IMG/VR virus record: IMGVR_UViG_3300023179_000016
Span: 62,001 to 126,000 of that record
DNA: 64,000 nucleotides
DNA from: a virus
Strand: one strand, 5' to 3'
In this document: positions 21 to 55,236 of the stretch, piece after piece
How positions within the stretch are numbered: position 1 is the stretch's first letter
Layout: the number at the start of each line of letters is the position of its first letter
Notes under the pieces: model-generated
Database searches by the model: none
The model's input: only the letters and a program-made list of their open reading frames with translations
Told to the model about the DNA's origin: nothing
Made by a program: the position numbers and the translations under genes

Positions 21-488
21 TCAGGCCTTGAACTTCGCGGCCAGCTCTGCAGGCAGCTGGCTGAAGTCGATGGCGGGCTTCGCGGGCTTGGCGATCTCGG
101 CACTCCTGAGGTCGATGAAGTGCTGGATCTCAGCCCTGTCGGCCGGGTCAGTCACCGTGCTGAGCAGGGCCTTGAGAGCCTTGATCTGCGGGTCGCCAGA
201 GCCAGAGCGAGCACCAGGGTTCTTGGTGACCCAGGTAGTCCCGCCGTTGAGTCGCTGGTCCTTGCGGAGCCAGTTGTTCACGAGGCCGACCACGTACTTC
301 TTGAGCTCCGGCTCAGAGAAGTTGGCCTTGAGGGTGATCTTACCCTCCTTGAACATGGTGACCAGCTCCGAGTGGATCTGGGCCAGCTCAGACTTGCTGG
401 GCGTGTGAGCTCCGTTAGGAGCGAACTGAGTGCAGAAGCAGCTGACGACATTGAAGACCGCTTCCTTCTGGTTCATTGCTGCGATCAT
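21..488 (-). CDS. Conserved phage hypothetical protein, paralogue of 1085-1522
   Basis: A 155-residue protein of unknown function. The start at 488 is chosen because GGAGG lies 8 bases upstream, and the paralogue at 1085-1522 starts at the same MNQKEAV region. A longer reading to 647 would run through the promoter-like block at 557-581. Three regions match the paralogue: MNQKEAV at the N-terminus, NNWLRKD-RLNGG in the middle, and a C-terminal half with ALxALLST-TDPADRAEIQ followed by LPAE-AAKF. The NWLRKD/RLNGG signature recalls small conserved proteins of other large phages, from memory only. The charged, helical, cysteine-poor sequence would suit a nucleic-acid-associated or regulatory role, but nothing in it proves that. 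It is much richer in GC than the tail genes. Confidence 0.8.
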   Translation of the reverse strand: MIAAMNQKEAVFNVVSCFCTQFAPNGAHTPSKSELAQIHSELVTMFKEGKITLKANFSEPELKKYVVGLVNNWLRKDQRLNGGTTWVTKNPGARSGSGDPQIKALKALLSTVTDPADRAEIQHFIDLRSAEIAKPAKPAIDFSQLPAELAAKFKA

Positions 489-530
489 GCGGGTTTCCTC
501 CGTTGGTTGGTTGTAGGTTCGGGCGCGAGC

Positions 531-564
531 TGTAAACTCGAGCATCATGCGCTCGACATTTACA
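531..564 (-). promoter_or_regulatory. Leader hairpin or operator of the 21-488 gene
   Basis: Nested inverted repeats lie between the promoter-like block and the ribosome binding site. TGTAAA at 531-536 pairs with TTTACA at 559-564, and CGAGC pairs with GCTCG inside it. It could be an mRNA 5' hairpin or a repressor site. Palindromes occupy the same relative place before the other two genes of this block. Confidence 0.55.
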
Positions 565-581
565 ATTAGATATAAGATCGG
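557..581 (-). promoter_or_regulatory. 25-bp promoter-like block, copy A
   Basis: On the minus strand it reads CCGATCTTATATCTA followed by ATTGTAAATG. The copy at 1647-1671 matches at about 23 of 25 positions, and 966-990 is a diverged copy of the same length. All three lie upstream of minus-strand genes of this block. The TATAT core suggests a -10 element, but no -35 box is evident. Confidence 0.6.
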
Positions 582-600
582 GGGAAGTCGGTATGCGGCC

Positions 601-614
601 GGCGTAGCAGTGTC
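601..614 (-). repeat. 14-bp direct repeat, copy 1
   Basis: GGCGTAGCAGTGTC is present exactly here and at 1004-1017. Each copy lies 14-20 bases beyond a promoter-like block, on the far side from the gene, so it could be an activator or -35-region element for the 21-488 and 668-925 genes. The third gene of the block lacks it. Confidence 0.6.
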
Positions 615-667
615 ACGGCGCGCGGACCAAAGGGTGGGGTCGTCCATGACCCCACCGTATCAGCGAC

Positions 668-1084: not shown

Positions 1085-1522
1085 TCAGCGCTTGCCGAAC
1101 TTGGCTGCGATCTCTGCAGGCAGCTTGCTGAAGTCGACCTTGGGTCGGTTCAGCTCGGCGATCCGAGAGTCGATGTGTCGCTGGATCTCAGCTCGATCCG
1201 TCGGGTCGGTGATGGTGCTGAGCAGAGCCCTGAGCGCAGTCAGCTGGGGATCATCGACTCGGGAGGACTTGGGTTGGTGATCGACCCCACCGTTCAGCCG
1301 CTTGTCCTTTCGGAGCCAGTTGTTGAGCAACCCTGAGACATAGTTGCTCAGCTCCTTGTCGGTGTACTCCTTCCTGAGCTCGATGCTCCCGTTCCTGAAC
1401 CCCTCGAACAAGACCTGACGGATGGTTCGGGTCTGCTCAGAAGTCGGCTCGCAGACGCCGACTCCATCGAACCCGGTGATCGCGACCACTGCCTGGTAGA
1501 CTGCTTCCTTCTGGTTCATCAT
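1085..1522 (-). CDS. Conserved phage hypothetical protein, paralogue of 21-488
   Basis: A 145-residue protein of unknown function. The start at 1522 (MMNQKEAV) has GAGGAG 6 bases upstream; a longer reading to 1567 lacks such a site. It shares with 21-488 the MNQKEAV start, the LSNYVSGLLNNWLRKDKRLN core, the ALRALLSTITDPTDRAEIQ segment and the LPAEIAAKFG end, so the two arose by duplication. They differ in the N-terminal region between residues 10 and 50. The upstream leader is longer and holds extra copies of the CYGAYMTTAYAT core. GC content is high, like its two neighbours. Confidence 0.8.
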   Translation of the reverse strand: MMNQKEAVYQAVVAITGFDGVGVCEPTSEQTRTIRQVLFEGFRNGSIELRKEYTDKELSNYVSGLLNNWLRKDKRLNGGVDHQPKSSRVDDPQLTALRALLSTITDPTDRAEIQRHIDSRIAELNRPKVDFSKLPAEIAAKFGKR

Positions 1523-1626
1523 GCGATGCTCCTCATGATCCATTGTAGGATCAGTTGACACATCCATGCGTCGGGTTGATTGATATGTAATGTCAGTACA
1601 ACATCACACATCAACATGTAAGATCA

Positions 1627-1671: not shown

Positions 1672-1695
1672 AAATCGTCGGGAAGAGATCATCCG

Positions 1696-1710
1696 AAAAT
1701 AGGGCCCGCC
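1696..1710 (+). repeat. 15-bp direct repeat, copy 1
   Basis: AAAATAGGGCCCGCC occurs here and again at 1788-1802, 92 bases apart, in the region upstream of the small-gene array. It contains the palindrome GGGCCC. A protein-binding role is possible but unproven. Confidence 0.5.
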
Positions 1711-1787
1711 GACCTCGACTTACAAGGGATCCCTAGAGTCGGGACCGGTACACGCTGCGCGAACGCTCTCTACATGCAACTTTTTAT

Positions 1788-1802
1788 AAAATAGGGCCCG
1801 CC
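1788..1802 (+). repeat. 15-bp direct repeat, copy 2
   Basis: Second exact copy of AAAATAGGGCCCGCC, 17 bases before the putative promoter at 1819. Confidence 0.5.
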
Positions 1803-1818
1803 ACCCTTGCTCCCTAAT

Positions 1819-1840
1819 AGGTACAATTTAACCGGTACCT
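1819..1840 (+). promoter_or_regulatory. Promoter-like box inside an inverted repeat
   Basis: AGGTACAATTTAACC contains the GTACAATT variant of the box seen before dUTPase (53881) and the methyltransferase-like gene (54446). AGGTAC at 1819-1824 and GTACCT at 1835-1840 form an inverted repeat around it, as expected for a promoter with an overlapping operator. It would drive the array starting at 1869. Confidence 0.45.
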
Positions 1841-1868
1841 CTTTTGCCTATTATATAAAAATAAACTC

Positions 1869-1994
1869 ATGAAGACCTATCATTTTAAGAAAGACAACGA
1901 GATACACTCTAGCATACCGAGAATAAAATTAACCGCTCTGCTTCTTCTCCTGAAGATAACGACGATCAAGGACCTAAACCTAGAACACATATGA
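1869..1994 (+). CDS. Small-gene array, member 1
   Basis: A 41-residue protein of unknown function: a basic N-terminus (MKTYHFKK) followed by a very hydrophobic helix, KLTALLLLLKITTIKDL. Its stop overlaps the next start in the form ATGA, so translation is probably coupled. No strong ribosome binding site is visible, and the TATATAAAAATAA stretch just upstream may be the promoter. The LLLLLK stretch resembles LLLLLYKMGL of the following product. Judged real from the unbroken overlap chain, not from homology. Confidence 0.5.
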   Translation: MKTYHFKKDNEIHSSIPRIKLTALLLLLKITTIKDLNLEHI

Positions 1995-2143
1995 CACGCG
2001 CACTACAAGCCAGCATCGTACGCCTATTGCTCACCCAAGACGGATATATCACTCCCAGCGACCCATCGGACGAGCCATGCACCCACACCGCAGACCTCTT
2101 GCTCCTGCTATATAAGATGGGCCTAGGGAGACTCCGCGCATGA
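1991..2143 (+). CDS. Small-gene array, member 2
   Basis: A 50-residue protein starting MTRALQASIVRLLL. After a short polar loop (TPSDPSDEPCTH) comes a hydrophobic helix TADLLLLLYKMGLGRLRA at the C-terminus, matching the position and pattern of the helix in member 1. It overlaps members 1 and 3 by four bases (ATGA). A transmembrane or coiled helix is possible, though the arginines at its end make an amphipathic interaction helix equally likely. Confidence 0.5.
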   Translation: MTRALQASIVRLLLTQDGYITPSDPSDEPCTHTADLLLLLYKMGLGRLRA

Positions 2144-2316
2144 GGCTCCACGACACCAGGGACCTGCTCAAGGTACTCGAGAAGCTCAATATCGCCTCCG
2201 CCAGCGAAAAGATAATGAGCGAGCTCACCGAGCACATGAAGCTGTGGTTTGGCCATTTTGATCAGGCTCACCCGGGCGCATACGCACCTATAGTCGACAA
2301 AAATGAAGAAAACTGA
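2140..2316 (+). CDS. Small-gene array, member 3
   Basis: A 58-residue protein: MRLHDTRDLLKVLEKLNIAS, then a second helix EKIMSELTEHMKLWF and an acidic C-terminus. AGGGAG lies nine bases before the start. The DLLKVLEKLNI helix has the LxxLLxxLxI pattern that recurs in members 4, 5, 6, 7 and 11. It overlaps member 2 by four bases and member 4 by fourteen. Function unknown. Confidence 0.55.
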   Translation: MRLHDTRDLLKVLEKLNIASASEKIMSELTEHMKLWFGHFDQAHPGAYAPIVDKNEEN

Positions 2317-2707
2317 GTTTGACGAGCATATGTATAGGCGCCTGGCTGGCTTCTTGGGCTGCATGGGCATAGAGATAGACGATTCTATGCTCGACCTGAT
2401 AAGGCGACACCACTGGCTCGACATGCGACAGGCGCGGCGCCCGTTCAAGCGCTACGGCGAGGACGACGATCTAGGCGACGAAGACGGCACCCTGTATCTC
2501 GCCGCAGCCGCGAGCGACGCACGGGACATAAAGCCGTGCGGATGCGAGTGGAATATAGTGAGACGTGTTCTCTATAAGGGGCAATGGTGTGTAGGCTGCT
2601 CGATGCACTTGATAGAGTTGCTAGAGATGCTCGGCGTCATCAGGGGTGAGGGAAGCGTCGAGGCCACCGTCATGTCGGCGCAAAAAGATGAGTGCGGCGC
2701 CTGGTAA
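2303..2707 (+). CDS. Small-gene array, member 4 (cysteine-containing)
   Basis: The largest member, 134 residues. The N-terminal half has RRLAGFLGCMGIEIDDSMLD. The centre is acidic (YGEDDDLGDEDG). A later segment has CGCEW and, 24 residues on, CVGC, which could bind a metal ion. The C-terminal helix HLIELLEMLGVIRGE shows the recurring LxxLLxxLxVI pattern. The gene is strongly GC-rich, unlike members to its right. It overlaps neighbours on both sides. No family is recognised. Confidence 0.65.
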   Translation: MKKTEFDEHMYRRLAGFLGCMGIEIDDSMLDLIRRHHWLDMRQARRPFKRYGEDDDLGDEDGTLYLAAAASDARDIKPCGCEWNIVRRVLYKGQWCVGCSMHLIELLEMLGVIRGEGSVEATVMSAQKDECGAW

Positions 2708-2891
2708 GACCGTACACGTCAGGCTCAGATGTGAGGGCGAGGAGTCGCTCGTCAGGTTGTTGAGCCGTCTAGAGGTGATACAATTATTAGCTATGCTGTA
2801 CGAGTACGGCTCTTCGAGAAGCATGTCGAGCCGCGCGTACGATGCAGTGATAATTGTCTCTAGGGGTGACGAGGCAGATGAAAATCGATGA
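2688..2891 (+). CDS. Small-gene array, member 5
   Basis: A 67-residue protein starting MSAAPGKTVHVRLRC. The ATG at 2688 is preferred over an upstream GTG at 2646 because it leaves a 20-base overlap typical of the array; the choice is not certain. The segment SLVRLLSRLEVIQLLAMLYE again shows the LVRLLxxLxVI pattern and is followed by a serine-rich stretch. The stop lies 14 bases inside the next gene. Function unknown. Confidence 0.5.
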   Translation: MSAAPGKTVHVRLRCEGEESLVRLLSRLEVIQLLAMLYEYGSSRSMSSRAYDAVIIVSRGDEADENR

Positions 2892-3105
2892 CGTGCTTAG
2901 ATATATCATGGCTTTTGCGGAGCAGGACCGGTGGAATACCAGGATGAATGGGTTGCCGCAGGATGCAGTGGTGCGCTTGCTCATGAAGCTGAGAGTTGTG
3001 GATGGGGTGGGGGCCCTAAGAAGCGTTGATGGAGAAAGATGCGGGGCGTGCGGATCAAGCAATAGACAAGAAGACAAGTATGTCGCTTTTATGGAGAGTA
3101 AGTAG
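2878..3105 (+). CDS. Small-gene array, member 6
   Basis: A 75-residue protein, MKIDDVLRYIMAFAEQDRW at the start, then AVVRLLMKLRVVDGVGALRS (recurring helix pattern) and a C-terminal CGACGSS segment that may bind metal. The start at 2878 follows AGGGG and GAGG motifs and overlaps member 5. The pattern RLL-KL-VV aligns by eye with member 5. Function unknown. Confidence 0.55.
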   Translation: MKIDDVLRYIMAFAEQDRWNTRMNGLPQDAVVRLLMKLRVVDGVGALRSVDGERCGACGSSNRQEDKYVAFMESK

Positions 3106-3129
3106 AAGATAATCTCTTACTTTGTTTTT

Positions 3130-3282
3130 GTGAAGTTTATAGTGGATTTTGAGAGATCTAACGACATGCCGGTTACCAAGGATTTTCTATGTCTTATAGA
3201 GAAGCTTGGTATATTAAAATTTAAGCAGCTTTACAGTCTCGAGCACTGGTTTTCTGACATAATGATAATAGAGTATGACTAG
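3130..3282 (+). CDS. Small-gene array, member 7
   Basis: A 50-residue protein beginning with a GTG codon (MKFIVDFERSNDM), 24 bases after member 6. FLCLIEKLGILKFKQL carries the recurring LIEKLGI pattern, followed by HWFSDIMIIEYD. Its stop overlaps the start of member 8 by eight bases. No clear ribosome binding site is seen, so translation may be coupled to member 6. Confidence 0.45.
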   Translation: MKFIVDFERSNDMPVTKDFLCLIEKLGILKFKQLYSLEHWFSDIMIIEYD

Positions 3283-3376
3283 CAACAGGCAGTTCAGTGA
3301 CTGGTATCAGCACGCGCAGAGATTGGCCAAGAAGATATCGTTTAGAAGATTCATATATCGATTGTTAAAAGTGTAA
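3275..3376 (+). CDS. Small-gene array, member 8
   Basis: A 33-residue basic peptide with C-terminal helix LAKKISFRRFIYRLLKV. It shares an overlapping TAATG junction with member 9. The KKxxxxRFIYRLL segment parallels FAKKMVLIEFLRRLMK of member 9 and VKRRLVRFIYKMID of member 10, suggesting three related tandem genes. Very short, so reality rests on context. Confidence 0.4.
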   Translation: MTSNRQFSDWYQHAQRLAKKISFRRFIYRLLKV

Positions 3377-3501
3377 TGAGCGACACAGAAGATAGCGATA
3401 CGATAAGAGACACTAAAAAATTCTTTGACTACCTGTCTTGCGCGTTCGCCAAGAAGATGGTCCTCATAGAGTTTCTGCGCAGATTGATGAAGATGCCATG
3501 A
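3376..3501 (+). CDS. Small-gene array, member 9
   Basis: A 41-residue peptide: acidic N-terminus (MSDTEDSDTIRDTKK) and basic C-terminal helix FAKKMVLIEFLRRLMKMP, the same layout as its neighbours. It starts within the stop of member 8 (TAATG) and its stop overlaps the start of member 10 (ATGA). Function unknown. Confidence 0.45.
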   Translation: MSDTEDSDTIRDTKKFFDYLSCAFAKKMVLIEFLRRLMKMP

Positions 3502-3692
3502 GCCACGTCAGCGATAACAATCTCATAAGGGTAAGGGAATATCAGGTGAAGCGCAGACTTGTCAGATTCATATACAAGATGATAGATAAGCCCATCGCGA
3601 CTAGCATGATCGATGCCCTTATGGAGTCGTTTAATATAAGTCTAAATGAAAACTACGAACTGATAGTGAAAGATATAGACGACATCAGCTAG
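3498..3692 (+). CDS. Small-gene array, member 10
   Basis: A 64-residue protein. QVKRRLVRFIYKMIDKPI aligns with the basic helices of members 8 and 9; then TSMIDALMESFNIS and an acidic C-terminus. The start at 3498 (MSHVSDNN) is chosen for its ATGA overlap with member 9. This is the last rightward member, and its end overlaps the last leftward member by eight bases. Confidence 0.5.
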   Translation: MSHVSDNNLIRVREYQVKRRLVRFIYKMIDKPIATSMIDALMESFNISLNENYELIVKDIDDIS

Positions 3693-3843
3693 TGGCAATC
3701 TCACTCGCCAGCTTTGTCATATAATCTACCCATAGATCATCTGGGTTTGCATTCTTGATGCCTAGAAATCTCAATAGAGATAACATCGACATTGCCGCAT
3801 CTATCTCTCTATATGTTGAGTTCTTGTTCACGGTGGCCGGCAT
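3685..3843 (-). CDS. Small-gene array, member 11 (leftward)
   Basis: A 52-residue protein, MPATVNKNSTYREIDAAMSM, then LSLLRFLGIKNANPDDLW. The LLRFLGI helix matches the pattern in members 3 and 7 although the gene is on the opposite strand. Its start lies 35 bases inside the upstream leftward gene, and its end converges on member 10. Function unknown. Confidence 0.5.
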   Translation of the reverse strand: MPATVNKNSTYREIDAAMSMLSLLRFLGIKNANPDDLWVDYMTKLASEIATS

Positions 3844-3967
3844 TTCTGGAATGAGAGAATAGTAGTTTATACATGAAAAATTTAAGCTCTAATGCGTAAT
3901 AGACATTGACCTTGCCATGTCTACTGCCTATATTGAAATTTAATTCTCTGTCAAATATCTTTTCCAT
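3809..3967 (-). CDS. Small-gene array, member 12 (leftward)
   Basis: A 52-residue protein starting MEKIFDRELNF. The start at 3967 has GAGGG 7 bases upstream and is preferred over a longer frame to 4000. Helix YYALELKFFMYKLLFSHS resembles the RFIYRLL and RFIYKMI helices of members 8 and 10. A TATAATT box on this strand lies at about 4040-4052. Function unknown. Confidence 0.55.
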   Translation of the reverse strand: MEKIFDRELNFNIGSRHGKVNVYYALELKFFMYKLLFSHSRNAGHREQELNI

Positions 3968-4039
3968 GTGTATTCCCTCGCGTGTTGGCAGAGGAAACAT
4001 TCATAAATTTGTGTTAGCCTCTGCGTTCAAAAGCTATCA

Positions 4040-4052
4040 CTTAATTATATCA
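4040..4052 (-). promoter_or_regulatory. TATAATT-type promoter for members 12 and 11
   Basis: The minus strand reads TGATATAATTAAG here, about 75 bases before the start at 3967. It matches the box found before many plus-strand genes and has no obvious -35 partner. Confidence 0.4.
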
Positions 4053-4080
4053 GTGAACAACACTAGAGTTAAGATGTTGA

Positions 4081-4102
4081 CTTAAATTAATAATTATTTA
4101 AG
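4081..4102 (-). terminator. AT-rich inverted repeat after member 13
   Basis: CTTAAAT and ATTTAAG form 7-bp arms around an 8-base loop directly after the stop of 4104-4265. It is too AT-rich to be a strong terminator and could equally be a binding site. Confidence 0.25.
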
Positions 4103-4103
4103 T

Positions 4104-4265
4104 TCAATATGGAAATGCGTTTGCAGAAGAGGATGCAACTTCGCCGGATTGGTATTTCTTATATATTTCTTCGCCGACGAGCTTCATCATGAACATGTAT
4201 AGTGAAAATTTTATATTTTCTTCTATATGTCTGTTGAAAAGCAGATTGTTTATTTTCGATCCCAT
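4104..4265 (-). CDS. Small-gene array, member 13 (leftward)
   Basis: A 53-residue protein starting MGSKINNLLFNRH. The start lies 16 bases inside the upstream gene. Hydrophobic segment NIKFSLYMFMMKLVGEEIY recalls KFFMYKLL of member 12. The C-terminus is small and polar (SSSANAFPY). Base composition is AT-rich, like the tail module and unlike members 1-6. Function unknown. Confidence 0.5.
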   Translation of the reverse strand: MGSKINNLLFNRHIEENIKFSLYMFMMKLVGEEIYKKYQSGEVASSSANAFPY

Positions 4266-4489
4266 TTATATTCTTGTACCTCGACGTCTCCTCCCATCAA
4301 GGTGTGATGCATTAAAACATCTACTGCCATTCTGGATCGCTGCTGTGTGGTTGGAGGGACTGTATTCAAGAATTCAGGTAAGCATATGCCTCTAAACGGA
4401 CACTTTGAACAGCGCTGCGATTCCATGCACTTGCCGTCTAATTCAATTATCTGCTCTAATATTTCTACATCTTCTGAATTAAGAGCCAT
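4250..4489 (-). CDS. Small four-cysteine protein, paralogue of 4479-4736
   Basis: A 79-residue protein with Cys21, Cys27, Cys30 and Cys36 in a C-x5-C-x2-C-x5-C arrangement after an ILEQIIELDGKC helix. That arrangement fits zinc or iron-sulfur binding. The next upstream gene shares ILKKIIEEEGNC and the CxxCP pair, so the two are paralogues. Similar short II-x-EEGNC...CxxCP proteins are familiar from other large phages, from memory only. AGGA precedes the start at 4489. It overlaps the upstream gene by 11 bases. The IscA-like gene lies just across the divergent promoter. Confidence 0.65.
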   Translation of the reverse strand: MALNSEDVEILEQIIELDGKCMESQRCSKCPFRGICLPEFLNTVPPTTQQRSRMAVDVLMHHTLMGGDVEVQEYKWDRK

Positions 4490-4736
4490 TGTTTCCTAAA
4501 AGATCGTCTACGGCTTCATCTAATAGCAACTTAGTTGCTATCTCGAGATATTTTGCATCGGCCTGTTCCTCAGTAAGATCTTCGATTCCTACAGCCTCGA
4601 CGCAAGACATCCAGGTGCCATCTGGTTTTTGCTTTAACTTACTCATAGGGCATGTTGCACATATGTTGGGTTTTGCCCAGCAACAGTTGCCTTCCTCTTC
4701 TATTATTTTTTTTAAGATGTTCTTCTTCTGGTCCAT
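4479..4736 (-). CDS. Small cysteine-rich protein, paralogue of 4250-4489
   Basis: An 85-residue protein with Cys18, Cys19, Cys26, Cys29 and Cys45; the C-x6-C-x2-CP motif follows ILKKIIEEEGN as in its neighbour. An acidic helical C-terminus (DEAVDDLLGN) follows. It is the first leftward gene from the promoter region at 4740-4807. A metal-binding role is likely; the partner and function are unknown. No clear Shine-Dalgarno sequence precedes it. Confidence 0.65.
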   Translation of the reverse strand: MDQKKNILKKIIEEEGNCCWAKPNICATCPMSKLKQKPDGTWMSCVEAVGIEDLTEEQADAKYLEIATKLLLDEAVDDLLGNNGS

Positions 4737-4807: not shown

Positions 4808-5131
4808 ATGATATCAATTACTAAAAATGCTGCACAAGAGTTACTAAGGCTTCTTGAAGGCAAAGACAAGGATACATATATAAGAATTAGAGTTATAGGA
4901 GGCGGCTGCTCTGGCTTAAATTACAAGTTAGATTTTGACAATGAATCTACAGTTTCGTCTGACAAGATAGTCATATTTGATGCTGTCAAGGTGGCCATAG
5001 ATAGTAAGTCAGCACTATTTTTAGACAAGACTGAGTTAGATTATAGTGGAGGTTTAAATGGCAAAGGTTTCACGTTTAATAATCCAAACGCTAAAAGAAC
5101 ATGCGGATGTGGTTCTAGTTTTAGCGTATAA
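4808..5131 (+). CDS. IscA/HesB-family A-type iron-sulfur carrier
   Basis: A 107-residue protein of the full length typical of IscA/ErpA. It has the three conserved cysteines of the family: Cys34 in GGGCSGLNY, and Cys99 and Cys101 in TCGCGSSFSV. In bacteria these proteins deliver iron-sulfur clusters to apoproteins. Its phage substrate is unknown; neighbouring cysteine-cluster proteins are one possibility and a virion iron site another. It begins the rightward structural block behind a TATAATT box. The alignment-level match and intact ligands make the family call firm; the role is inferred. Confidence 0.9.
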   Translation: MISITKNAAQELLRLLEGKDKDTYIRIRVIGGGCSGLNYKLDFDNESTVSSDKIVIFDAVKVAIDSKSALFLDKTELDYSGGLNGKGFTFNNPNAKRTCGCGSSFSV

Positions 5132-5156: not shown

Positions 5157-5978
5157 ATGAGCATGGATCGTCCAGATAAACCGTATCCCATACCTCCGCC
5201 AGCTTCACCGCTGTCGACTCCTTCTCCAATGCCCTTGTATATTCCCGATCCCAGCATAAAAGGGGTTAGTTTTGATCAATTATTAAATCAACGCGGCATT
5301 AGGATGATACATAAAAAGGCAATACCATGCATGAATATAGGATCTGTCAACTATCAAGCGCATGAGCCAGATTGTTCATTTTGCGACGATTCTGGCATTC
5401 TGTATTACGACAGTAAAGAAACATGGGGAGTATTTACTGGCAACTCAATAGAAAAAACTTTTGAAGCCCACGGTGTATGGGAAATTGGCACTGCTGTTGT
5501 CACTCTGCCGACAGAATATAAAGACGGCACACAAGCCGATTTTAATACATACGATAAATTGGTGATACCAGATTACACGGTGAGATTATGGGAATTAAAA
5601 GAATACGAACCTACAACTGACAATAAGCAGCGTCTTAGATACGATGTAACTAATGTAGAGTATGCCTCTTCTATATCCAATGGAATACAAAAACTGTACT
5701 ATCCTGGCTCAGATTTTAATATTAGCGAAGAAGGTTATATAGAATGGATACCAGGTCAAGAACCATCATATGATTCTGTAAATCAAAGAGGCGAAGTCAT
5801 AGGATGGGCTTACTTTGCTAATCCGGTATACATAGTTCTGCAATCTCTTAGAGAATTAAGAATAACTCAAGAATTAATAGGTGGAGTCAAACAGGCTAGA
5901 AGATTACCGCAGCAAGTTCTAGTAAGAAGAGACTTCATGGCCGATAACTCAGAAAAGATAAACACTTCTCAACCTTAA
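5157..5978 (+). CDS. Probable virion protein with a cysteine motif (connector candidate)
   Basis: A 273-residue protein. A proline-rich N-terminus (residues 8-33) leads to a C-x14-C-x2-C motif with Cys58, Cys73, Cys76 and His69 in EPDCSFCDDSG, likely a zinc site. The rest is a beta-rich body with YDKLVIPDY and WELKEY, ending in a basic helix (LIGGVKQARRLPQQ). Position at the head of the neck and tail genes suggests a head-tail adaptor or other structural component. No family was recognised. A GTAAAATT box precedes it. Confidence 0.6.
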   Translation: MSMDRPDKPYPIPPPASPLSTPSPMPLYIPDPSIKGVSFDQLLNQRGIRMIHKKAIPCMNIGSVNYQAHEPDCSFCDDSGILYYDSKETWGVFTGNSIEKTFEAHGVWEIGTAVVTLPTEYKDGTQADFNTYDKLVIPDYTVRLWELKEYEPTTDNKQRLRYDVTNVEYASSISNGIQKLYYPGSDFNISEEGYIEWIPGQEPSYDSVNQRGEVIGWAYFANPVYIVLQSLRELRITQELIGGVKQARRLPQQVLVRRDFMADNSEKINTSQP

Positions 5979-12271: not shown

Positions 12272-12829
12272 ATGGCTAAAAAACCGATTTTTATAACAGG
12301 CGCAAATGCTAAACTTAAAATAGACGGTAAAACATTTGCATATGCACAAGATGTCAGCTATAGTGTCGCAGTAGATACTATCCCGATTGAAACAATGGGT
12401 CGCTATGAAGCTGTAACCAATGAACCAGTAAATTATTCTGTCGCTGGCGAGTTTGCTATTGTTCGGTACACTTCTGCTGCTGTTGCCGCACAGGCAGGAA
12501 TAGATGCTGCGGCATCTGGCGGTAACGGATTAGGTAACGTCAAGGGTAACAATAACAGCACCAACGGTTTATCTTCCCATGTTAATCCAGGTAAACTATT
12601 GGACTCTGTGACATGGGATTTAGAAGTTTTTCAAAAGGGTGCAGGAGCGGGTACCAATGCTCCGGTAATAAAGGTCTTAGATTGTCGCATCACTAGAAAG
12701 AGTGGTGGCCTCAATAAAAGAGGTATTTTAGTCGAGAGAGTTTCATTTGTTGGTCTACTACATGCCGACGAATCTATGACAGGTCAGCAGGCAGTTTCCA
12801 ATTCTGGTGACACTGATCTTAGCGGCTAA
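12272..12829 (+). CDS. Tail tube protein
   Basis: A 185-residue protein and the likely main tube subunit. The start has AAGGA five bases upstream. The motif KPIFITGANAKLKIDGKTFA then VSYSVAVDTIPIETMGRYE and NYSVAGEFAIVRY fits the beta-sandwich tube fold, and it sits after the sheath with its own terminator at 12859. Two further genes (12906 and 13463) encode the same fold. A glycine/asparagine-rich loop at residues 80-105 is the most variable part. The assignment as main tube protein rests on order and on its independent terminator. Confidence 0.75.
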   Translation: MAKKPIFITGANAKLKIDGKTFAYAQDVSYSVAVDTIPIETMGRYEAVTNEPVNYSVAGEFAIVRYTSAAVAAQAGIDAAASGGNGLGNVKGNNNSTNGLSSHVNPGKLLDSVTWDLEVFQKGAGAGTNAPVIKVLDCRITRKSGGLNKRGILVERVSFVGLLHADESMTGQQAVSNSGDTDLSG

Positions 12830-12905: not shown

Positions 12906-13460
12906 ATGGGCAATAAACCATTTTTTTTAACGGGCGCAAATGCCAAAATTAAAGTCAATGACATGACCGTTGCTTTCTGCACCGATGTATCTTATTCTGT
13001 TCAAATAATGCATCAGACACCTAAAATTTTAGGTATGTATGAAGGCACATCTGTAGAACCTATTGGTTATAATGTTTCTGGCTCATTTAGAGTTGTTAGA
13101 TATGTTAGAAACGCTGTAGATAATTTAGGTGCCCCATCTGGATCTAAGGCTAAAAATAGTGGCAATGGTATAGGTAATATGTCGTCTAGTGGACCTTGGC
13201 TCACTAACGATGCGCAAACACATCTATCTCTTGTTCCTGCTGATTTAGAAAACGCTATGGGTTTTGATCTAGAGATACATCAAAAATTATCAACTGGCGA
13301 ATTTTTAGGCGTCGCTAAGATAAGAAATTGTAGAATAGTTCAAACAGATTTTTCTTTGTCTAAGAGAGCAGCAGCAATACAAACTTATAATTTTGTTGCT
13401 CTATATGCAGACGAAGATAGCTTTATCGCAGATTTTAGTGGCAGAGGGCAGCACTTCTAA
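12906..13460 (+). CDS. Tail-tube-fold paralogue 2
   Basis: A 184-residue protein clearly related to the 12272 product: KPFFLTGANAKIKVNDMTVA, VSYSVQ, IGYNVSGSFRVVRYV and FDLEIHQKL match FITGANAKLKIDGK, VSYSV, VNYSVAGEFAIVRY and WDLEVFQKG. It may form a specialised ring, such as the tube-baseplate or tube-neck junction, as gp54-like initiators or secondary tube proteins do in other phages. It stands behind its own promoter-like box. Confidence 0.7.
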   Translation: MGNKPFFLTGANAKIKVNDMTVAFCTDVSYSVQIMHQTPKILGMYEGTSVEPIGYNVSGSFRVVRYVRNAVDNLGAPSGSKAKNSGNGIGNMSSSGPWLTNDAQTHLSLVPADLENAMGFDLEIHQKLSTGEFLGVAKIRNCRIVQTDFSLSKRAAAIQTYNFVALYADEDSFIADFSGRGQHF

Positions 13461-13462
13461 TT

Positions 13463-14044
13463 ATGGCTAAAACAGGCTTTGATAACGGCAGCGGATTTAA
13501 AAATGTTGGAGAAAATCTAACTAGTTCTTTTGGTAGTTTATTGTCTGCTAGACCTACAGCCAAATATGCTTCTGGTGCTCGATGTTTATTAAAAATAAAC
13601 AATAAATTGTGTGGTTTTGCGTTTGCTATTTCTTGGAGAATAACTACACAATCTACCGAAATTAACACAATAGATGATCCATTCGCATATGAACTTGCTC
13701 CTCAAAGAATTACAGTAGATGGCACTATATCTGCCTTACATATACCGGGTGAAGGTATTGGAGTTAAGTTATGGCAACCAGATTCATTAAATTTTTTATT
13801 TCAACAGTATATAACGATAGAGGTTAGAGATTCTGCCACTGATAACTTATTGTTTTTTACTGATAGAGCTATGATAGTTAGTAGACAAGAAGATATAAAA
13901 GTAGATTCTTTGGCCAATGTTCAATTAAGTTGGAGAGCAATAGGATTCAAGGATGAAAGAGAACCTAAATTGCCGGATGGACTCGACAACGGTACGCCTT
14001 TAGAAAACGCCTCTAAATTCCTTAAAAAATTAACATCATTTTAA
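13463..14044 (+). CDS. Tail-tube-fold paralogue 3
   Basis: A 193-residue protein, two bases after the previous stop. The core SGARCLLKINNKLCGFAFAI then INTIDDPFAYELAPQRITVD aligns with the tube proteins' TGANAKLKIDGK, IETMGRYE and VNYSVAG. It has about 30 extra N-terminal residues and a distinct C-terminus, so it is the most diverged of the three. A role as tube initiator or baseplate-proximal ring is plausible but inferred from the fold and order. Confidence 0.6.
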   Translation: MAKTGFDNGSGFKNVGENLTSSFGSLLSARPTAKYASGARCLLKINNKLCGFAFAISWRITTQSTEINTIDDPFAYELAPQRITVDGTISALHIPGEGIGVKLWQPDSLNFLFQQYITIEVRDSATDNLLFFTDRAMIVSRQEDIKVDSLANVQLSWRAIGFKDEREPKLPDGLDNGTPLENASKFLKKLTSF

Positions 14045-14909: not shown

Positions 14910-17870
14910 ATGGCAAATAAAAAAGACGACGATTTAAGAAAAAGAATACAAGAGGCTAAAAAACCTACTCTTGGTGAGGAAGAACTCTCTAGAAGAATAG
15001 AGCAAAGTATAGAGCTTCGTGAAGCTTTAACTGCTGGTCTAGAATCTGGTCTAGGATCTGGGGATCCTAAACTTTTAAATCAAACGCTTTCTGCGATAAA
15101 CAAATCTGCTAAGGCTATTGCTAGAGATGAGCCGAGATTAGAGCTAAAACAAGCAGCCAGATTAGAGCGTCAAGGTTCTTTGATAGCATCTACAGTTCAA
15201 AGTATGTTTTCAGCAGAATCATCTAGTACACGCGGACGAATTTCGCAGATGGCTAGAAGCTCCGATATCATAAATGGTTCATTATCACTAACAGATGCTC
15301 CGTATGAAGAACTTGAAGAAAGACAAAGACAACAAGAAATTAGATTGGGTAAATTGGGTCAAAGAGCAGGTAGCGCCGCATCTGCCTTAATATTAGACCC
15401 CAACAATCCTAAATCAACTAAAATAGAACAAAAATTACAACGAACCCTACAAGAAAGAGAAGAAGTTCTTTCTAGTATGGCAGTCAATGAAGTGACATTA
15501 AAGAGAAAAAAGTCTTTAGGCTTAGACCCAGAATCTAAAATAGAAGATTTATACAAAACATCTTTTTTTGCTCAATCTTTGTTGAATGAAAATAAAATAG
15601 CGCAGAACTACGGATCAGATCAGATAAAAATTAAGGGTGAAAAACCTGGAGAAGAAATTTCTGTTAAAAAAACAGAAATAGATTCTAAATTAGTTGAAGA
15701 ATCAAAAAACTTATTAGAATCTATGAAAAAATTAGCAAAAGAAACTGATCACACTTCTGAAAGTTTTAAAAAACAAAGAGCTATAGCAGAACAACACAAA
15801 GAAAACATTGAGACACTTAGAGGAGCACAAAAAGCTAAAAGAGATTATGATGAGCAGACATACACCGATGCTGTCAGTAAAGCTCAAAAATATGCCGCTT
15901 ATGGTTCTTTTGCTAATATAGCCGGCGGAGCAGCACAAGAATTGTTTGTAAACCAAAGAAAACAAACAATGGCGAATCAGCGCGGATTTGCTCAATTTGA
16001 AAATATGAAATATGATACATATAGGGCTGCACTTTCTGGCGATGTGCAATCTATGATGATGTTGGGTCAATTTTCGGGAGCTGAAGATTTTGGTGGACAA
16101 TTGAAAGCTGGACAAACAGCTGCATTAGGACTTAAAGGAGTCGGGGCTGGGTTTGATATCAAGGCGGGAAGCGCATTAATTGGTGCTGGTGCAGCTGGTT
16201 CAGTTGGGGGTACTTTTACTGGAGCTGTTGGTCAAAGTGTCAATGTCGCGCGAGAAGGCGCGCAGATGGTCGCGGGCGGTACAGCAAATCTTATAACAAT
16301 AGGTGAAGATATAAGAAAGTCACAGTTCGGTCCTGGAGGCTCTGCCAATACCGAAAAACTTCAAGGTGCCTTCGCCAATGTAGAAACAATGAAAGCGATA
16401 ACAAAAATACCTGCTTTTCAGCAACAACAGTTACTAGATTTTTCTAGGGGAATGGGAGAAGTTGCTAGAGGTATGGGTGGTCAAGGGGAGGCATTTCTAA
16501 ACGAGTCGCTTGGGTCCAATAAGATGTTAGATAGAATGCAAAGTTTACGCATGTCTCCGGAAGAAATGACTAAAATGATGTCCTTTGGTGTAAACGAGGT
16601 CGGTAGTACATTTACAGCACAATCTGCATTTGCCGCTAGAGGCCTTGAAAAATCTGGTATAGGGACTAAAGAACAAAATCTACAGAGAATGGCCATGCTG
16701 TCTCAAGCTGGTGCCAACAATCCAGAAACTGCACTTTCAAATGTCTTAGAGGCCGCAGTGGGTAGAGGTTTTGATAATTCTAAATCTATGTCAGTTTTAG
16801 TTCAAAATACCGCAGAAATGGCAAAACAAAGTGCTACTTCTATGGCTGCAGGTTTAGATGTTACCGGCAGTATTTCTACTATATTGGCTGCCGGCGCAGA
16901 CAAAAATATGCCCAATAGAGAATTTGCACTTGAAAGATCTAGAACAGTTCAAGAAGCAATACAAGGAACTACGGCCAACACGGGGACCGATTTATTGGGT
17001 TTGATGAACACATCTACCATATCGTCGTTAACAGGACTTAGCGGCAAATCTGCGACATTTGCAGCTAAAATATCAATGTCTGAATTGAGGTCTCTAAAAG
17101 GGAAATCTAAGGGAGAAATAGAAGACTATTTTGCAGAAAGAGGCGTCGATCCAAACGAATTTGGATCTGGTGCAGTTGAAGGCATCAATCAATTGATGAA
17201 ATCTAAAGCAGAAGCATTGCTTCGCGGCAAAACTGGAATGGGTTTAGTTGCAGATTTAAGTGAAAAAGATAAAGATAAAATATTAAGTGCCTTTACAACC
17301 GGCGATCCTTCTAAGTTGGGTGGAGATAAAAGACTACAAGCGATTGTAAGTCAATTACAAGAAGGCATAGGCAGTAAAGAATTAATTAGGGGCGTTGGTG
17401 CTGGATTTATAGGAGAAAATGAACCTAATTCTAAAGCTAAAGTTGAAGGACTTAAAAAGGGCGAAGGTGGAGGAGAACTTCAAAAAGCCTTTGATGCAAT
17501 GTCTACAAGCGGCGCTGCTCAATTAACCGATGCCGCGAAAAGAGCTACTGATTCTTTAGGCAGTGCAGCAAAAGCGTTAAAAGGTTTTGCACAAATAGCT
17601 GTAAATCTTAGAGCCTCTGATTATGAAAAAATTGCAACAGACGCGGCAGCTAAAGCAGCAGGTACAGGTGAATTTTCTAAAGCAGCAAATGAGATGTTTA
17701 GTAATTCTGTTGGTAAATTTGGTGATTTTGTTCAAGAATTAACAGATTTATTAAAAACAGCAGATATATCTGGTAGAAATAGTGTTGCACCTGCAGGCGC
17801 TATAAGACAGCTAAAGAGCGCCACAGAAAAACAAAGATTTATGAAGACCTCACCGGGAGGCAAAAAATAA
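14910..17870 (+). CDS. Tape measure protein
   Basis: A 986-residue protein setting tail length and likely leaving the tube at infection. It is largely helical and rich in Ala, Gln, Lys and Glu. A hydrophobic, glycine-rich stretch at about residues 395-465 (GAAGSVGGTFTGAVGQ) may be the membrane-interacting part. By the usual rule of about 1.5 angstrom per residue it predicts a tail near 150 nm. The start is two bases after the chaperone frame, and its stop abuts the hub gene. The call rests on length, composition and position. Confidence 0.8.
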   Translation: MANKKDDDLRKRIQEAKKPTLGEEELSRRIEQSIELREALTAGLESGLGSGDPKLLNQTLSAINKSAKAIARDEPRLELKQAARLERQGSLIASTVQSMFSAESSSTRGRISQMARSSDIINGSLSLTDAPYEELEERQRQQEIRLGKLGQRAGSAASALILDPNNPKSTKIEQKLQRTLQEREEVLSSMAVNEVTLKRKKSLGLDPESKIEDLYKTSFFAQSLLNENKIAQNYGSDQIKIKGEKPGEEISVKKTEIDSKLVEESKNLLESMKKLAKETDHTSESFKKQRAIAEQHKENIETLRGAQKAKRDYDEQTYTDAVSKAQKYAAYGSFANIAGGAAQELFVNQRKQTMANQRGFAQFENMKYDTYRAALSGDVQSMMMLGQFSGAEDFGGQLKAGQTAALGLKGVGAGFDIKAGSALIGAGAAGSVGGTFTGAVGQSVNVAREGAQMVAGGTANLITIGEDIRKSQFGPGGSANTEKLQGAFANVETMKAITKIPAFQQQQLLDFSRGMGEVARGMGGQGEAFLNESLGSNKMLDRMQSLRMSPEEMTKMMSFGVNEVGSTFTAQSAFAARGLEKSGIGTKEQNLQRMAMLSQAGANNPETALSNVLEAAVGRGFDNSKSMSVLVQNTAEMAKQSATSMAAGLDVTGSISTILAAGADKNMPNREFALERSRTVQEAIQGTTANTGTDLLGLMNTSTISSLTGLSGKSATFAAKISMSELRSLKGKSKGEIEDYFAERGVDPNEFGSGAVEGINQLMKSKAEALLRGKTGMGLVADLSEKDKDKILSAFTTGDPSKLGGDKRLQAIVSQLQEGIGSKELIRGVGAGFIGENEPNSKAKVEGLKKGEGGGELQKAFDAMSTSGAAQLTDAAKRATDSLGSAAKALKGFAQIAVNLRASDYEKIATDAAAKAAGTGEFSKAANEMFSNSVGKFGDFVQELTDLLKTADISGRNSVAPAGAIRQLKSATEKQRFMKTSPGGKK

Positions 17871-36000: not shown

Positions 36001-39000
36001 ATGCATGCTAACAGGCGTTGGCACTTCGTTGACATGGACGCAATTAAATTCGTTTAATGGTGCTACTACTCCACCAGAAGGAGCACTAGTATTCTCTAAA
36101 AATGGCACTAGCGCATACAATACGCTATGGATGAGATCTGGATCTGCTTGGAGACAAGTAGAGCACACCCAAATAACAAAAGAACCAACCGGATTTCCGA
36201 ATAGAACAGATACCACTATAAGCTTCAACAATAGCACTAGAACATTTACAATAACTCCAACAGGCGCTTTCTTTGAAGTATATCAAAAAGGTAAACCATA
36301 TAGATTTGACTCTGCTCAGAGCAAGACGATAACTAATACAGAAGGCCTGCACTACATATATTTTGATAATGGTATTCTTCAGTCTACTCAGACATTTGAT
36401 ATAGCTATAATAAAAGAATACGTATTTGTCGCAACTATTCAGTGGGATGCAACTAATCAAGTCAGAATAATGTTTGGCGACGAACGTCACGGTCTCACTA
36501 TGGATGGCGAGACGCATTCATATCTGCATCAATCTATAGGTGCTAGATATATAAGTGGACTATCTGCTGGTAATTTTACTACCTCAGGTACTGGTTCATC
36601 TAATTCAGACGCTCAACTCTCTATAGCGAATGGTACAGTCAGAGATGAAGACCTATCGTTTGACTACACAAATTCTGCTACACCAACTCAACCATTTCAG
36701 CAGATACTAAGTCCAATCGCTAATATACCGATGTACTACAGAAGTGGTGCTAGCGGCAATTGGAGAAAAGATACAGCCACAGCATATTCATTAAAACAAG
36801 GAACTAGCAGGATCAAATGGAACAATCCCGCGGGTCCATGGACCACGCCAGATGCGTCATCTGACGATAACTATGTGGCTGTTTGGCTTTTTTCAAGTAA
36901 CAGCCAAGAAGAACCAATTATAGGTATTGTTGGCCAAAGAGAAGACACTACATTAAATAATGCTCTAGCGAATAACACGTATGAATCTATTTCTTTTGGA
37001 AGTCTTCCATCTCTAGAATTGAAAGTGCTATATCGCCTAATATTCCAGACCTCATCTGCATATACCAACGCCGTCAAAGCAAGACTTGTAGATGTTAGAG
37101 ATCTTCGTAGAGCAGTAGATGTATCATTAGGTGCATATGCTCCTAGTGATCACGGTCTATTAACTGGGTTGACTGATCAAGATCACCCGGATTATTCTAT
37201 ATTTGTGAATAGTCCTTCATCTTATGTTGGTGCCCTAAAACAGATTCAAGTATCAGACAATAATGATGTTCAAAAAGCCCTTAACAGCCTAGATAGATTT
37301 TTTGCTCAGATGAGGCTTGCACCGCACCCAAGCAATGGCAATAGGGTGATAATGTCTGGGGCAGATCAGGCTCTAACTAACGGCATAACACTCACGCAGA
37401 ACATCAAGGATCTGATGATATCGTTTGATGGTGCGCAGATAGATTTCTCTACTGGCGCTGTATATAAAGCAGATGGATTAACAGCGCTCGGCGTCAATTT
37501 TACGCCTGCTACCATAACATCTAATCAGTATCGCTGGTATTCCATTACTGGAATAGCATCTTCGATAAATTCTGATAACACGATAAATCTTCAGTTAATA
37601 GTGTTACCTGCGTCAGGTGATGGAGCTACTCCAACTGCAGCACCAAAAGCTGCCTATGCAAAAGGTATACAAATAGGTTCAATTGTAGTTCGTGAAAATG
37701 GTTTAGGCGGCATAACCGCAATTACTGCCTCTAGCATAAGACAGCTTGGTATAGGTGGAGGCGGTAGCAGTAGTGATACTGGTAGCGGTCTAGGCGACGA
37801 TATAAATACACTTCGCTTTAAGGCAAGTTTCAGCGATGATTTTTCAGATAGTCCAACTAGCTCATCAAGCGCAGTCAATAGCTCTCTTACTACAGCATCA
37901 TATAATACGGCAAATACACTATATCGTCTGAGCTATGACGCATCGAGAACCGTTACTGGTACAGGCACATCGATGACGCTATCTGGCACACCATCATACA
38001 CCGTTGTAGCAGGAGACATGTTGGTTGTTGGATCTGAAGCTCGGCGCATAGTAACAGTATCTACTCAGACTTCTTATATTATAGAATCAGCATTCAGCTC
38101 TAATCCATCTGGTGCAGCCGCTTGCGTTTCTCAGGCTGTTCACACCAATGATGTTAGAGCCCATAATGAAAATTCTACAGGTCTTGCACTTAACTCGGTA
38201 ATAACAGACTCTGTAAATACTTTCATGCTTCGCTACAGAGATAGCGCCGCATCTGGTGACACTATCTGGGATTTCCCAAGCTCGGCACTGATTGCTGCCA
38301 GCGCCTCTGCAGATAATTCAAATTGGACTGCACCATTCACACGTGTAACTTCATTGAGCGCACAAGAACCAATACGCACCGTATCTGTATCTGGTTCTCA
38401 ATTTAGAGTAAGATTCTTCGCCAACGCAGTAAGCGGAACGGGCGCTGTAAACATACTAGATTATAAGGCGTATCTCCATGAAGATATCGGCACTGTATCT
38501 GGCACCACTATGGATCAAGCATATTGCTTGACTAACGGTACAGGCACCAGTGTAAATTGTTCTGTATCTTCTGCGACAGGTAAAACTCGCATCACTACTA
38601 CTTGGGCCTATGCCACCTCTGTTAATCCTGGTACCCAGCAAGGTCAAATAATGGTGATATTGGACGGCAAAATATTGCCGCGCTATATCGATGCCACTTT
38701 GACTCCTAGCGGTTATTATAAAGAGATATCTGGCCAAGTGATAGAGTTAGATTCTAATTATAGCAGCGTCGCTCTTGAGATTGATATCAAGAAGATGGTC
38801 AATGCTGTTGATACTACGAGTCAAAACAGCACTAATATAAGCTATATACAAGACATGAGCACCGCTGGTCTTCAAGGGTTTGTTGACGAGAGTTCTGTAT
38901 TAATTGCCTCTAGTACTATGACTGCTGGCCAACTTGGCGGTAACGGTATATTTAGAAGCACCATTACAAATCGCGCTTCTATTCCCGATCTAGCGAATGA

Positions 39001-51333: not shown

Positions 51334-51400
51334 GATTTATTATACTGATCGATAAAAATGAGTCAAATAAGGTATCTATTACCTTTAGTAGAATATACTC
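51334..51400. promoter_or_regulatory. Bidirectional promoter region between replication operon and helicase
   Basis: The minus strand has TCAGTATAATAAATC (51334-51348) for the leftward operon. The plus strand has TAGTAGAATATACTC just before 51401 for the SF2 helicase. Between them AAGGTA (51369-51374) and TACCTT (51380-51385) form an inverted repeat with a 5-base loop, a possible operator. Confidence 0.5.
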
Positions 51401-52798
51401 ATGAAAATATTCGTATATAATGACTCTATAAAAATTGAAAATCCAACTCAAGACACGTTAAATATTATAAAATCGGATCTTGTTTATAGAGACAAATCTA
51501 AAGATTATCAACTCAGAAAAATGGCAAGAAATCCTTGGCATCGTAATTCTGTCTTATACAAAAAATTACAAAAAGAAGTAGAGGGTGTTCTATATAAAGA
51601 ACAAGACGATGTCATCGTCGTGTCTTCCGCCTTATTCGATGAATATAAATCCATATTCAATGGGTGTCACGTAGAAGATTTAAGAAAAGAGACAGGGTCT
51701 AAGATAAGCCTTCCGTGGACAAACAAGCCATTTGATCTCAGAGATTATCAACGAGAAGCAGTAGATGTGATGATGGTCTCTAATAGAGGCATAATAAATT
51801 ACGCTACCGGTCTAGGAAAGACATTACTGGCGACGCATCTGATAAAGCAATACAAGAGAAAAGCATTAGTAGTTTGTCCAAGTGAATCTGTCGCGAAGCA
51901 GTTCTACGATATTTTAGAAAAATCATTCGGAAAGACAAGAGTAGGCTTTTACGGAGGCGGGAAGAAAAAGATAGAAGATATAACGGTAGGTATTGCCGCA
52001 TCGATATCATTAAATATCCACGAATTCAAGAATAAAGATTTAGGTCTCGTCATAATAGACGAATGCCATCATACTCCAGCAAATACCTTCATGCAGATAG
52101 CAGAAGGTCTTTCACACGTAGGTAAGATGTTCGGTCTAACTGCAACTGATTATAGATCCGACGGCAAAGATCTCTTGATAAAGGCAGGATGCGGGTCTGT
52201 TCTCGTCAAGAGAGATATAAAATGGGGAATCGAGAATGGATGGCTCGCTGAACCTTATTTTATAGTGAGAGAGGTTCTTACTCACGGCAAGGACTATAAA
52301 GACGATAAATTAAAATCATATAAAGAGCACGTGTTGAACAACAACGAGATGAAATCTAGAATCGAATCGGACGCACGGGCGATGATTAGCGCCGGCAAGC
52401 AGGTACTTATCCTTGTAGATGAAGTAGCCCACGGCAAAGAATTATCTAAGAATTTAGGAATACCGTTTGCGACCGGACAAGATAAGAAGTCGCAAGAATA
52501 TGTAGATGCTTTGAATAAAAAGAAGATATCTGCATTGGTAGGAACCTCAGGAAAAGTGGGGGAGGGAACAGACACTAAAAATGTGGATGTGCTTATATTA
52601 GCAGATTTCACGGCCTCTAAGGGTCCTGTAATACAGGCAGTAGGTAGAGCTCTTAGAAAGCAAGATGATAAGACTAAGGCCCTAATATTGGACTATATTC
52701 CTTTAGGATCTTCTATGTTGACTAGACATGCCAAAGGCAGAATTAAGTACTACCAAGAGATAACAGACAAGATTAAGATAATACAGCACAATTCATAG
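51401..52798 (+). CDS. SF2 DNA helicase (UvsW/XPB-like)
   Basis: A 465-residue superfamily 2 helicase. RDYQREAVDVMM precedes the Walker A motif ATGLGKT (residues 135-141). The DEAH-type box is DECHH starting at residue 220, followed by motif III-like FGLTAT and C-terminal motif VI-like QAVGRALRKQDD. Helicases of this type (T4 UvsW) process stalled forks and recombination intermediates and help start recombination-dependent replication. Unusually short N-terminal domain (about 100 residues). It is transcribed away from the helicase-primase operon. Confidence 0.85.
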   Translation: MKIFVYNDSIKIENPTQDTLNIIKSDLVYRDKSKDYQLRKMARNPWHRNSVLYKKLQKEVEGVLYKEQDDVIVVSSALFDEYKSIFNGCHVEDLRKETGSKISLPWTNKPFDLRDYQREAVDVMMVSNRGIINYATGLGKTLLATHLIKQYKRKALVVCPSESVAKQFYDILEKSFGKTRVGFYGGGKKKIEDITVGIAASISLNIHEFKNKDLGLVIIDECHHTPANTFMQIAEGLSHVGKMFGLTATDYRSDGKDLLIKAGCGSVLVKRDIKWGIENGWLAEPYFIVREVLTHGKDYKDDKLKSYKEHVLNNNEMKSRIESDARAMISAGKQVLILVDEVAHGKELSKNLGIPFATGQDKKSQEYVDALNKKKISALVGTSGKVGEGTDTKNVDVLILADFTASKGPVIQAVGRALRKQDDKTKALILDYIPLGSSMLTRHAKGRIKYYQEITDKIKIIQHNS

Positions 52799-54432: not shown

Positions 54433-54445
54433 TATTCTGTGAACT

Positions 54446-54456
54446 AAGTACAATTA
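54446..54456 (+). promoter_or_regulatory. GTACAATT-type promoter before the methyltransferase-like gene
   Basis: AAGTACAATTA lies just upstream of the start at 54461, in a 28-base gap after dUTPase. No Shine-Dalgarno sequence is evident, so the mRNA may be nearly leaderless. Confidence 0.4.
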
Positions 54457-54460
54457 GTAC

Positions 54461-55228: not shown

Positions 55229-55236
55229 GGTTAAAT

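Follow-up and report, generated by a model that had tools for sequence, protein, structure and literature searches.

We identified a hypervariable operon of overlapping microprotein genes that holds a constant position within a clade of uncultured phages resembling Bacillus phage SPO1 and Myxococcus phage Mx1. The stretch of DNA analyzed (the window) is 64,000 nucleotides long and comprises bases 62001-126000 of the 153,399-base virus record IMGVR_UViG_3300023179_000016; the array lies at window positions 1869-4265 (63.9-66.3 kb of the 153.4-kb record, which is mid-record in a record that may be incomplete). The original prediction, made from the sequence alone, had described 13 tiny frames here, 10 rightward and 3 leftward ones converging on them, and the open reading frame (ORF) listing gives exactly these, with 1- to 35-base overlaps and 2 gaps (Table 1). 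In related phages, the array frames are under purifying selection and are real coding sequences, and several of the encoded proteins are collages in which a motif common to the array is joined to short segments resembling virion proteins.

Conservation and coding of the array

Relatives were found by a search with the gp6.4-like virion gene to the right of the array, which yielded 72 related contigs; the array was read where upstream sequence sufficed, and gene boundaries in these arrays are our own calls. The same array, for which the original prediction had suggested looking, was present at the same place in about 30 related uncultured phages, where the interval from a leftward MxQKEAV-type gene to 2 leftward cysteine-rich genes is in most cases again occupied by a run of tiny rightward genes, with a few leftward genes after them. 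No array was found by annotation at this spot in SPO1 (upstream of gene 6.4) or in Mx1, and phage records held no close relative of the first 20 kb of the window. In one relative, L008, window genes 2, 4, 5, 6, 7, 10, 11, and 13 all have homologues, arranged in the same order, with that of the 64-amino-acid (aa) product added by phmmer. For the window 50-, 134-, 67-, 75-, 50-, and 53-aa products, comparison with L008 gave synonymous divergence (Ks) that was saturated or high and nonsynonymous divergence (Ka) of 0.5-0.8, while the 52-aa and 63-aa leftward products had homologues in many relatives.

Comparison between relatives gave Ka/Ks of 0.07-0.44 in most array frames versus 0.9-1.4 in frames of the upstream leader, which serve as a built-in control. 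No homologue was found for the window frames starting at 1869 (41 aa), 2140 (58 aa), 3275 (33 aa), and 3376 (41 aa), and these 4 of 13 are supported by position, plus the motif for 1869 and 2140. Arrays of L014 and L015 form a mosaic of identical genes beside genes with Ks of 0.4-0.6, which indicates that array segments were exchanged between phages.

The noncoding leader contains a core, CTTACAAGGGATCCCTAGAGTCGGGACCGGTAC, at 1719-1751, a second GGGCCCGCCACCCT box at about 1794, and the elements CCTAATAGG and GGTACC immediately upstream of the first ORF. Where the core was found in the complete genomes examined, it stood at the array start only. An RNA structure was considered and rejected, as folding gave only 6 predicted pairs, 1 of them with a compensatory change, and no Rfam match; because there is almost no covarying structure, the leader resembles DNA of promoter type more than RNA, and its sequence appears promoter-like.

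A shared helix motif and virion-like segments

The shared pattern L..LL..L.I, noticed earlier in several products, is present in 9 of the 13 frames in the loose form [LIVMF]..[LIVMFCA][LIVMF]..[LIMF]x[IVLM], which was defined after seeing the data; it is missing from the 33-aa product, the 41-aa product at 3376, and the 63-aa and 53-aa leftward products. Its density was 13 per 1000 aa in the array versus 0.36 per 1000 aa in the large proteins of the phage, 4 of the 122 other small predicted proteins had it, and it was enriched over shuffles in 29 of 30 arrays, all counts from a gene caller that rewards the motif with a bonus. A six-frame test, with the motif profile rebuilt without the tested phage and no gene-caller bias, is cleaner. 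At 12 bits or more, it matched 6 of 104 array frames versus 4 of 2774 outside in G001, 5/89 versus 3/3556 in G002, 5/126 versus 9/3704 in G005, and none in G004. For the window phage, the numbers were 1/69 versus 0/2909, and 2/69 versus 0/2909 at 10 bits or more. Matches outside the arrays were mostly other tiny genes, several of them clustered.

In relatives, the motif sharpens to LxxLLxKLGIKSAR. Alignment of 108 rightward array proteins (MAFFT) gave a single ungapped core, with the motif in nearly all, that reads L (95/107), a hydrophobic residue, any residue, L or F (87/108), L (99/108), any residue, K (71/108), L (94/108), G, N, or D (77/108), and I, V, or L (96/107), often with KSAR next; its leucine positions are conserved at 87-92%. 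The motif may stand anywhere from near the N-terminus to the C-terminus. It is likely a short amphipathic helix-turn module, as modeled for gene 11 (residues 7-26 helical, a turn at LGIKNA, residues 34-51 helical; predicted local distance difference test score [pLDDT] 66). Predictions for array proteins reached pLDDT 66-70, too low for a fold search, and comparison of the motif with the PDB returned only generic leucine-rich helices. Scans with one window protein and with alignment A4 gave nothing. We rejected a DNA repeat as the source of the motif, since KLGIKSA codons differ between copies, although AAGCTTGG recurs. Outside the arrays, near the major capsid protein (MCP) gene, G005:11520-11984 (leftward, start codon uncertain) encodes LLVNLGIKSAR followed by a glycine-rich tail-fiber-like stretch.

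The interpretation given in the original prediction held in part. A second set of products (RFIYRLL, KFFMYKLL, YMFMMKLV) appears to carry a shortened form of the main helix, because relatives have LLHKLLHG, KFFLAKLLYTHKS, and YMFMVKLLRLYG in like slots. Repeated duplication and divergence of a helical module was right as to the module, which is real and family-wide, whereas pure duplication is too simple: array members are unalike beyond the motif of about 15 residues, and shuffling and recombination are at work, because the flanks are swapped in relatives and some of them are virion-protein segments.

These segments resemble the MCP, the tail tube, and the sheath (Table 1). To separate likeness from chance, 128 family profiles from 5 phages were compared with 539 array proteins and their reversed and shuffled versions. 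At 13.5 bits or more, there were 12 real matches (MCP, 4; 3 tube-like paralogues, 7; sheath, 1) and none to reversed or shuffled sequences; the 12 cover fewer distinct proteins, because the 3 tube paralogues match the same segments. Likeness to nonvirion proteins was at or under the control level and was discarded. Below about 10 bits, signal and noise mix, and the weaker assignments of these short segments rest also on recurrence and position. One array member reached phrog_752, the major head protein (0.0022), and one reached phrog_3776 (1.7e-4), the family of the tube-like gene of the window. With hhalign, 9 array proteins aligned to MCP 234-268 (E 1.5e-4, probability 51). The top PDB match of an L017 array protein was residues 35-66 of the SPO1 MCP gp6.1 (0.05), and the phage-record matches of the same protein were mostly N-termini of SPO1-like MCPs. 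Searched alone against phage records, the MCP 231-267-like and tube segments gave chance-level matches only, so both rest on profile comparison within the clade.

When viral contigs were scanned with the sheath look-alikes, 26 of the 28 loci that were checked proved to be true sheath genes. In 4 phages, the look-alike shares 11-14 of 19 residues with the sheath of the same phage, with another codon used at 2/14 to 8/12 of identical residues; this partial use of different codons indicates that most sheath look-alikes are old and were kept similar, while that of L056 may be a recent copy. The source of the L017:1054 segment is probably a baseplate protein. L022:7276-7524 appears to start with a baseplate-like piece, followed by one like MCP 150-165, then the motif, and finally MCP 49-74, and only this last piece is significant alone. 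The gene in the CSCP...LLHKLLHG slot differs between phages: it includes an MCP piece in L049 and a tube piece in both L042 and L056, whereas in L022 it has no piece of either kind. Only segments of 18-45 residues were seen; no array protein has a full-length HK97-type MCP, contractile sheath, or tail tube fold.

MCP residues of about 15-57 (GGVLQAESLEATLKSVTF) recur in ORFs of 552-568 aa just upstream of the MCP gene in G001, G002, G005, G007, and G008 (L095-L097, L100, L101), a slot that is the head protease site in the window phage, and a 261-aa SPO1 ORF has a similar stretch. This stretch is possibly a shared assembly signal.

Candidate functions

A host-takeover or anti-defense role, as originally proposed, is plausible, and we tentatively favor one form of it, that the array proteins are counter-defense decoys for host receptors that sense virion proteins. 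The bacterial receptor DSR2 is triggered by monomeric tail tube protein, which it contacts through tube strands beta2 and beta8 (PMC10981675), and CapRel is triggered by the MCP (PMC9712102); this reading is rated highest because such proteins trigger these receptors. The array would be made from the leader promoter region, probably ahead of late proteins. The common helix would dock on a shared partner or form a scaffold, and the variable part would occupy receptors recognizing capsid or tail subunits that are not yet assembled, and the genuine subunits would then fail to trigger abortive defense. Members without a virion segment, all those of the window included, would address other host or defense targets through the same helix, and the array of the window would be a helix-only version, as far as visible. 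In its broadest form, a self-mimicry decoy array in which a mutable microprotein library shows look-alikes of the phage's own capsid and tail on a common helix, and thereby blinds or saturates virion-sensing receptors, the idea is somewhat doubtful.

In favor of decoys, the imitated proteins are 3 self-assembling virion proteins (MCP, tail tube, and the sheath N-terminus), and location, gene order, purifying selection, and the motif hold across arrays. Several points weigh on the other side: early expression is assumed, virion segments are recognizable in a minority of array proteins and in none from the window's own array, and DSAD1, the known anti-DSR2 protein, is not described as a tube fragment. 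DSAD1 and the array products are alike in being small phage proteins, and the tail tube and capsid sensed in such defenses are the proteins imitated here; DSAD1 is a single protein, whereas here we have an array of chimeras. The array proteins scanned belong to no Pfam, PHROG, or PADLOC anti-defense family.

The lack of recognizable virion pieces in the window array would suit generic host takeover, a rather doubtful alternative in which the common helix binds a host target and the virion pieces are meaningless raw material captured by recombination. The L014/L015 exchange and the swapping of pieces between slots are in line with it, and the distantly related SPO1 has small host-takeover genes clustered in its terminal redundancy. 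That module, from a related myovirus lineage, likewise consists of tightly packed small genes with little similarity to other proteins (virion segments aside, array proteins match no Pfam or annotated PHROG family), but the window array is flanked by an accessory island and virion genes, and to our knowledge, the SPO1 module has no LxxLLxKLGIKSAR motif or virion look-alikes. Meaningless raw material fits poorly with the result that among 128 families, only polymer-forming virion proteins exceed controls, and with the recurrence of the same segments, their amino-acid likeness kept with different codons. These polymer-forming sources, and the mostly N-terminal position of the segments, also agree with interference with assembly, in which interface arms (the MCP N-terminal arm and the sheath and tube N-termini) cap growing polymers and poison co-infecting competitors or time the phage's own assembly. 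Sheath N-terminal arms link subunits; we regard this alternative as unlikely, because the producer's own virions would be hampered too unless timing is tight, and recognizable segments are not in every phage of the clade.

Quite improbable is that the segments are tags by which microproteins co-assemble into particles for delivery to the next cell. The MCP 15-57 stretch in the ORFs upstream of the MCP gene and in the SPO1 ORF speaks for it, but sheath and tube N-termini are not known as packaging signals, and no cleavage site is evident. T4-like internal head proteins with capsid-targeting sequences are similarly small proteins sharing a short signal that also serves in capsid assembly; the array differs in that tube and sheath are sources of segments too, and in that the common motif often lies inside the protein, with variable tails after it. 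That the ORFs are incidental to a DNA element for regulation or recombination is hardly credible: a conserved noncoding leader does precede the array, and 4 window frames are without homologues, but many array genes have Ka/Ks values far lower than 1, compared with about 1 for the leader, the conserved motif is written with varied codons, and homology across relatives is seen at the protein level.

Small phage gene clusters are common; what stands out here is an operon with one motif across nearly every member, several of them capsid, tube, and sheath collages. We found no report of such an array in the open-access literature and no family matching the collages in the libraries searched. If the look-alikes act on defense receptors, as in the decoy reading, the arrays are a readable record of the virion parts that bacteria sense, and discovery of virion-sensing immunity would become directly testable. 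Should assembly be their target instead, they are natural peptide inhibitors of phage morphogenesis.

Genome setting and accessory genes

Table 1. Features of the array, its flanks, and the virion-like segments of related arrays (window coordinates unless a relative, labeled L, is named)
Feature	Position	Strand	Evidence
MxQKEAV-type gene, left boundary, multi-copy in these phages	1085..1567	-	up to 57% in relatives; more copies in same record
Conserved noncoding leader, ~170 bp	1695..1868	+	aligned in 12 phages, 29 invariant columns
Array gene 1, 41 aa, LTALLLLLKI	1869..1994	+	ORF, pattern; no homologue found
Array gene 2, 50 aa, LLLLLYKMGL	1991..2143	+	homologue L008:2119, phmmer 1.9e-5, 33% aa, Ks saturated
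Array gene 3, 58 aa, DLLKVLEKLNIASASE	2140..2316	+	15.1 bits to a motif profile from which this phage was left out
Array gene 4, 134 aa, CxC segment and LIELLEMLGVI	2303..2707	+	homologue L008:2262, 2.6e-6
Array gene 5, 67 aa, LVRLLSRLEVI	2688..2891	+	homologue L008:2638-2799, 44%, 3e-13
Array gene 6, 75 aa, VVRLLMKLRVV	2878..3105	+	homologue L008:2819, 0.004; 37% aa, Ks saturated
Array gene 7, 50 aa, FLCLIEKLGIL	3130..3282	+	homologue L008:3043, 38%, 4.6e-8
Array gene 8, 33 aa, RFIYRLLKV	3275..3376	+	ORF only
Array gene 9, 41 aa, LIEFLRRLMK	3376..3501	+	ORF only
Array gene 10, 64 aa, RFIYKMI and IDALMESFNI	3498..3692	+	homologue L008:3222, 1e-4; phrog_13288 (unknown function) 7e-4
Array gene 11, 52 aa, MLSLLRFLGIKNA...LWVDYM	3685..3843	-	13-member family; predicted two-helix hairpin, pLDDT 66
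Array gene 12, 52-63 aa, KFFMYKLL	3809..4000 (or 3967)	-	homologues in many relatives, best 2e-7
Array gene 13, 53 aa, YMFMMKLVG	4104..4265	-	homologues in many relatives, best 3e-9
Cys-rich gene b1, 79 aa, conserved flank	4250..4489	-	36-61% in about 30 relatives
Cys-rich gene b2, 85 aa, conserved flank	4479..4736	-	up to 70% in relatives
SPO1 gp6.4-like virion gene, right landmark	5157..5978	+	phrog_1004 7e-24; SPO1 6.4 4e-13; 72 loci
MCP 38-91-like segment	L017:150, L049:5990, L022:7276		
MCP 231-267-like segment	L042:5957, L038:3865, L012:6572		
Tube N-terminus-like segment	L017:800, L012:7153, L055:7471, L042:4816, L056:6190, L027:5859		
Sheath N-terminus-like segment	L056:7314, L038:3428, L027:5059, L029:5254, L028:7084, L055:7229		
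N-terminus of baseplate-like 2359-aa protein	L017:1054		51%, 3.5e-6

On its right side, a G+C-rich island of small leftward genes (record 56-65 kb) ends with the array, and the small-gene run continues past 4265 with b1 and b2, the most conserved flank of the array; to their right follow an IscA/HesB-like gene and the SPO1 6.4-like virion gene. The IscA/HesB-type iron-sulfur protein gene adjoining the array (window 4808-5131; PF01521, 1.5e-19) had a match in only L009 among related loci. For the 64-aa array product, RNA polymerase binding (RpbA) was considered and rejected, as the weak Pfam match (0.014) is absent for its L008 homologue. Virion genes of the window phage resemble those of SPO1 and Mx1, and its MCP gene (record 142278-143729) matches phrog_752 (5.5e-54) and the solved SPO1 gp6.1 (1.4e-65). 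Three related, consecutive tube-like genes lie at window 12272-12829, 12906-13460, and 13463-14044, and window 55225-56964 resembles a GroEL-type chaperonin gene, judged by eye. Multi-copy proteins of about 155 aa, MxQKEAV...NNWLRKDKRLNGG...NPGSRxGSGDPQLKALRAL, are encoded at window 21-647 and 1085-1567 and at L002:6953-7417 and 15851-16333, and no Pfam or PHROG family was found for those tested.

Contigs of relatives were binned in metagenomes with Saprospiraceae, Cytophagales, and Flavobacteriaceae, which is weak evidence on the host. Several arrays contain a PagL-like lipid A deacylase gene (PF09411, 5e-8; L049:7890-8381, also L027, L031, L043, and L053), with a homologue elsewhere in the window phage (record 17284-17826), which suggests a Gram-negative host. 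A small c-type cytochrome gene (PF13442, 1e-8) lies within the array at L027:7882-8208. Finally, a second short motif, NGQWxLxK, occurs N-terminally, internally, or C-terminally in otherwise unlike phage proteins (record 38649-39287, 51344-51895, 54053-54757, and 121744-122049) and in an array gene family of about 98 aa (L012:6263-6559 and other arrays).

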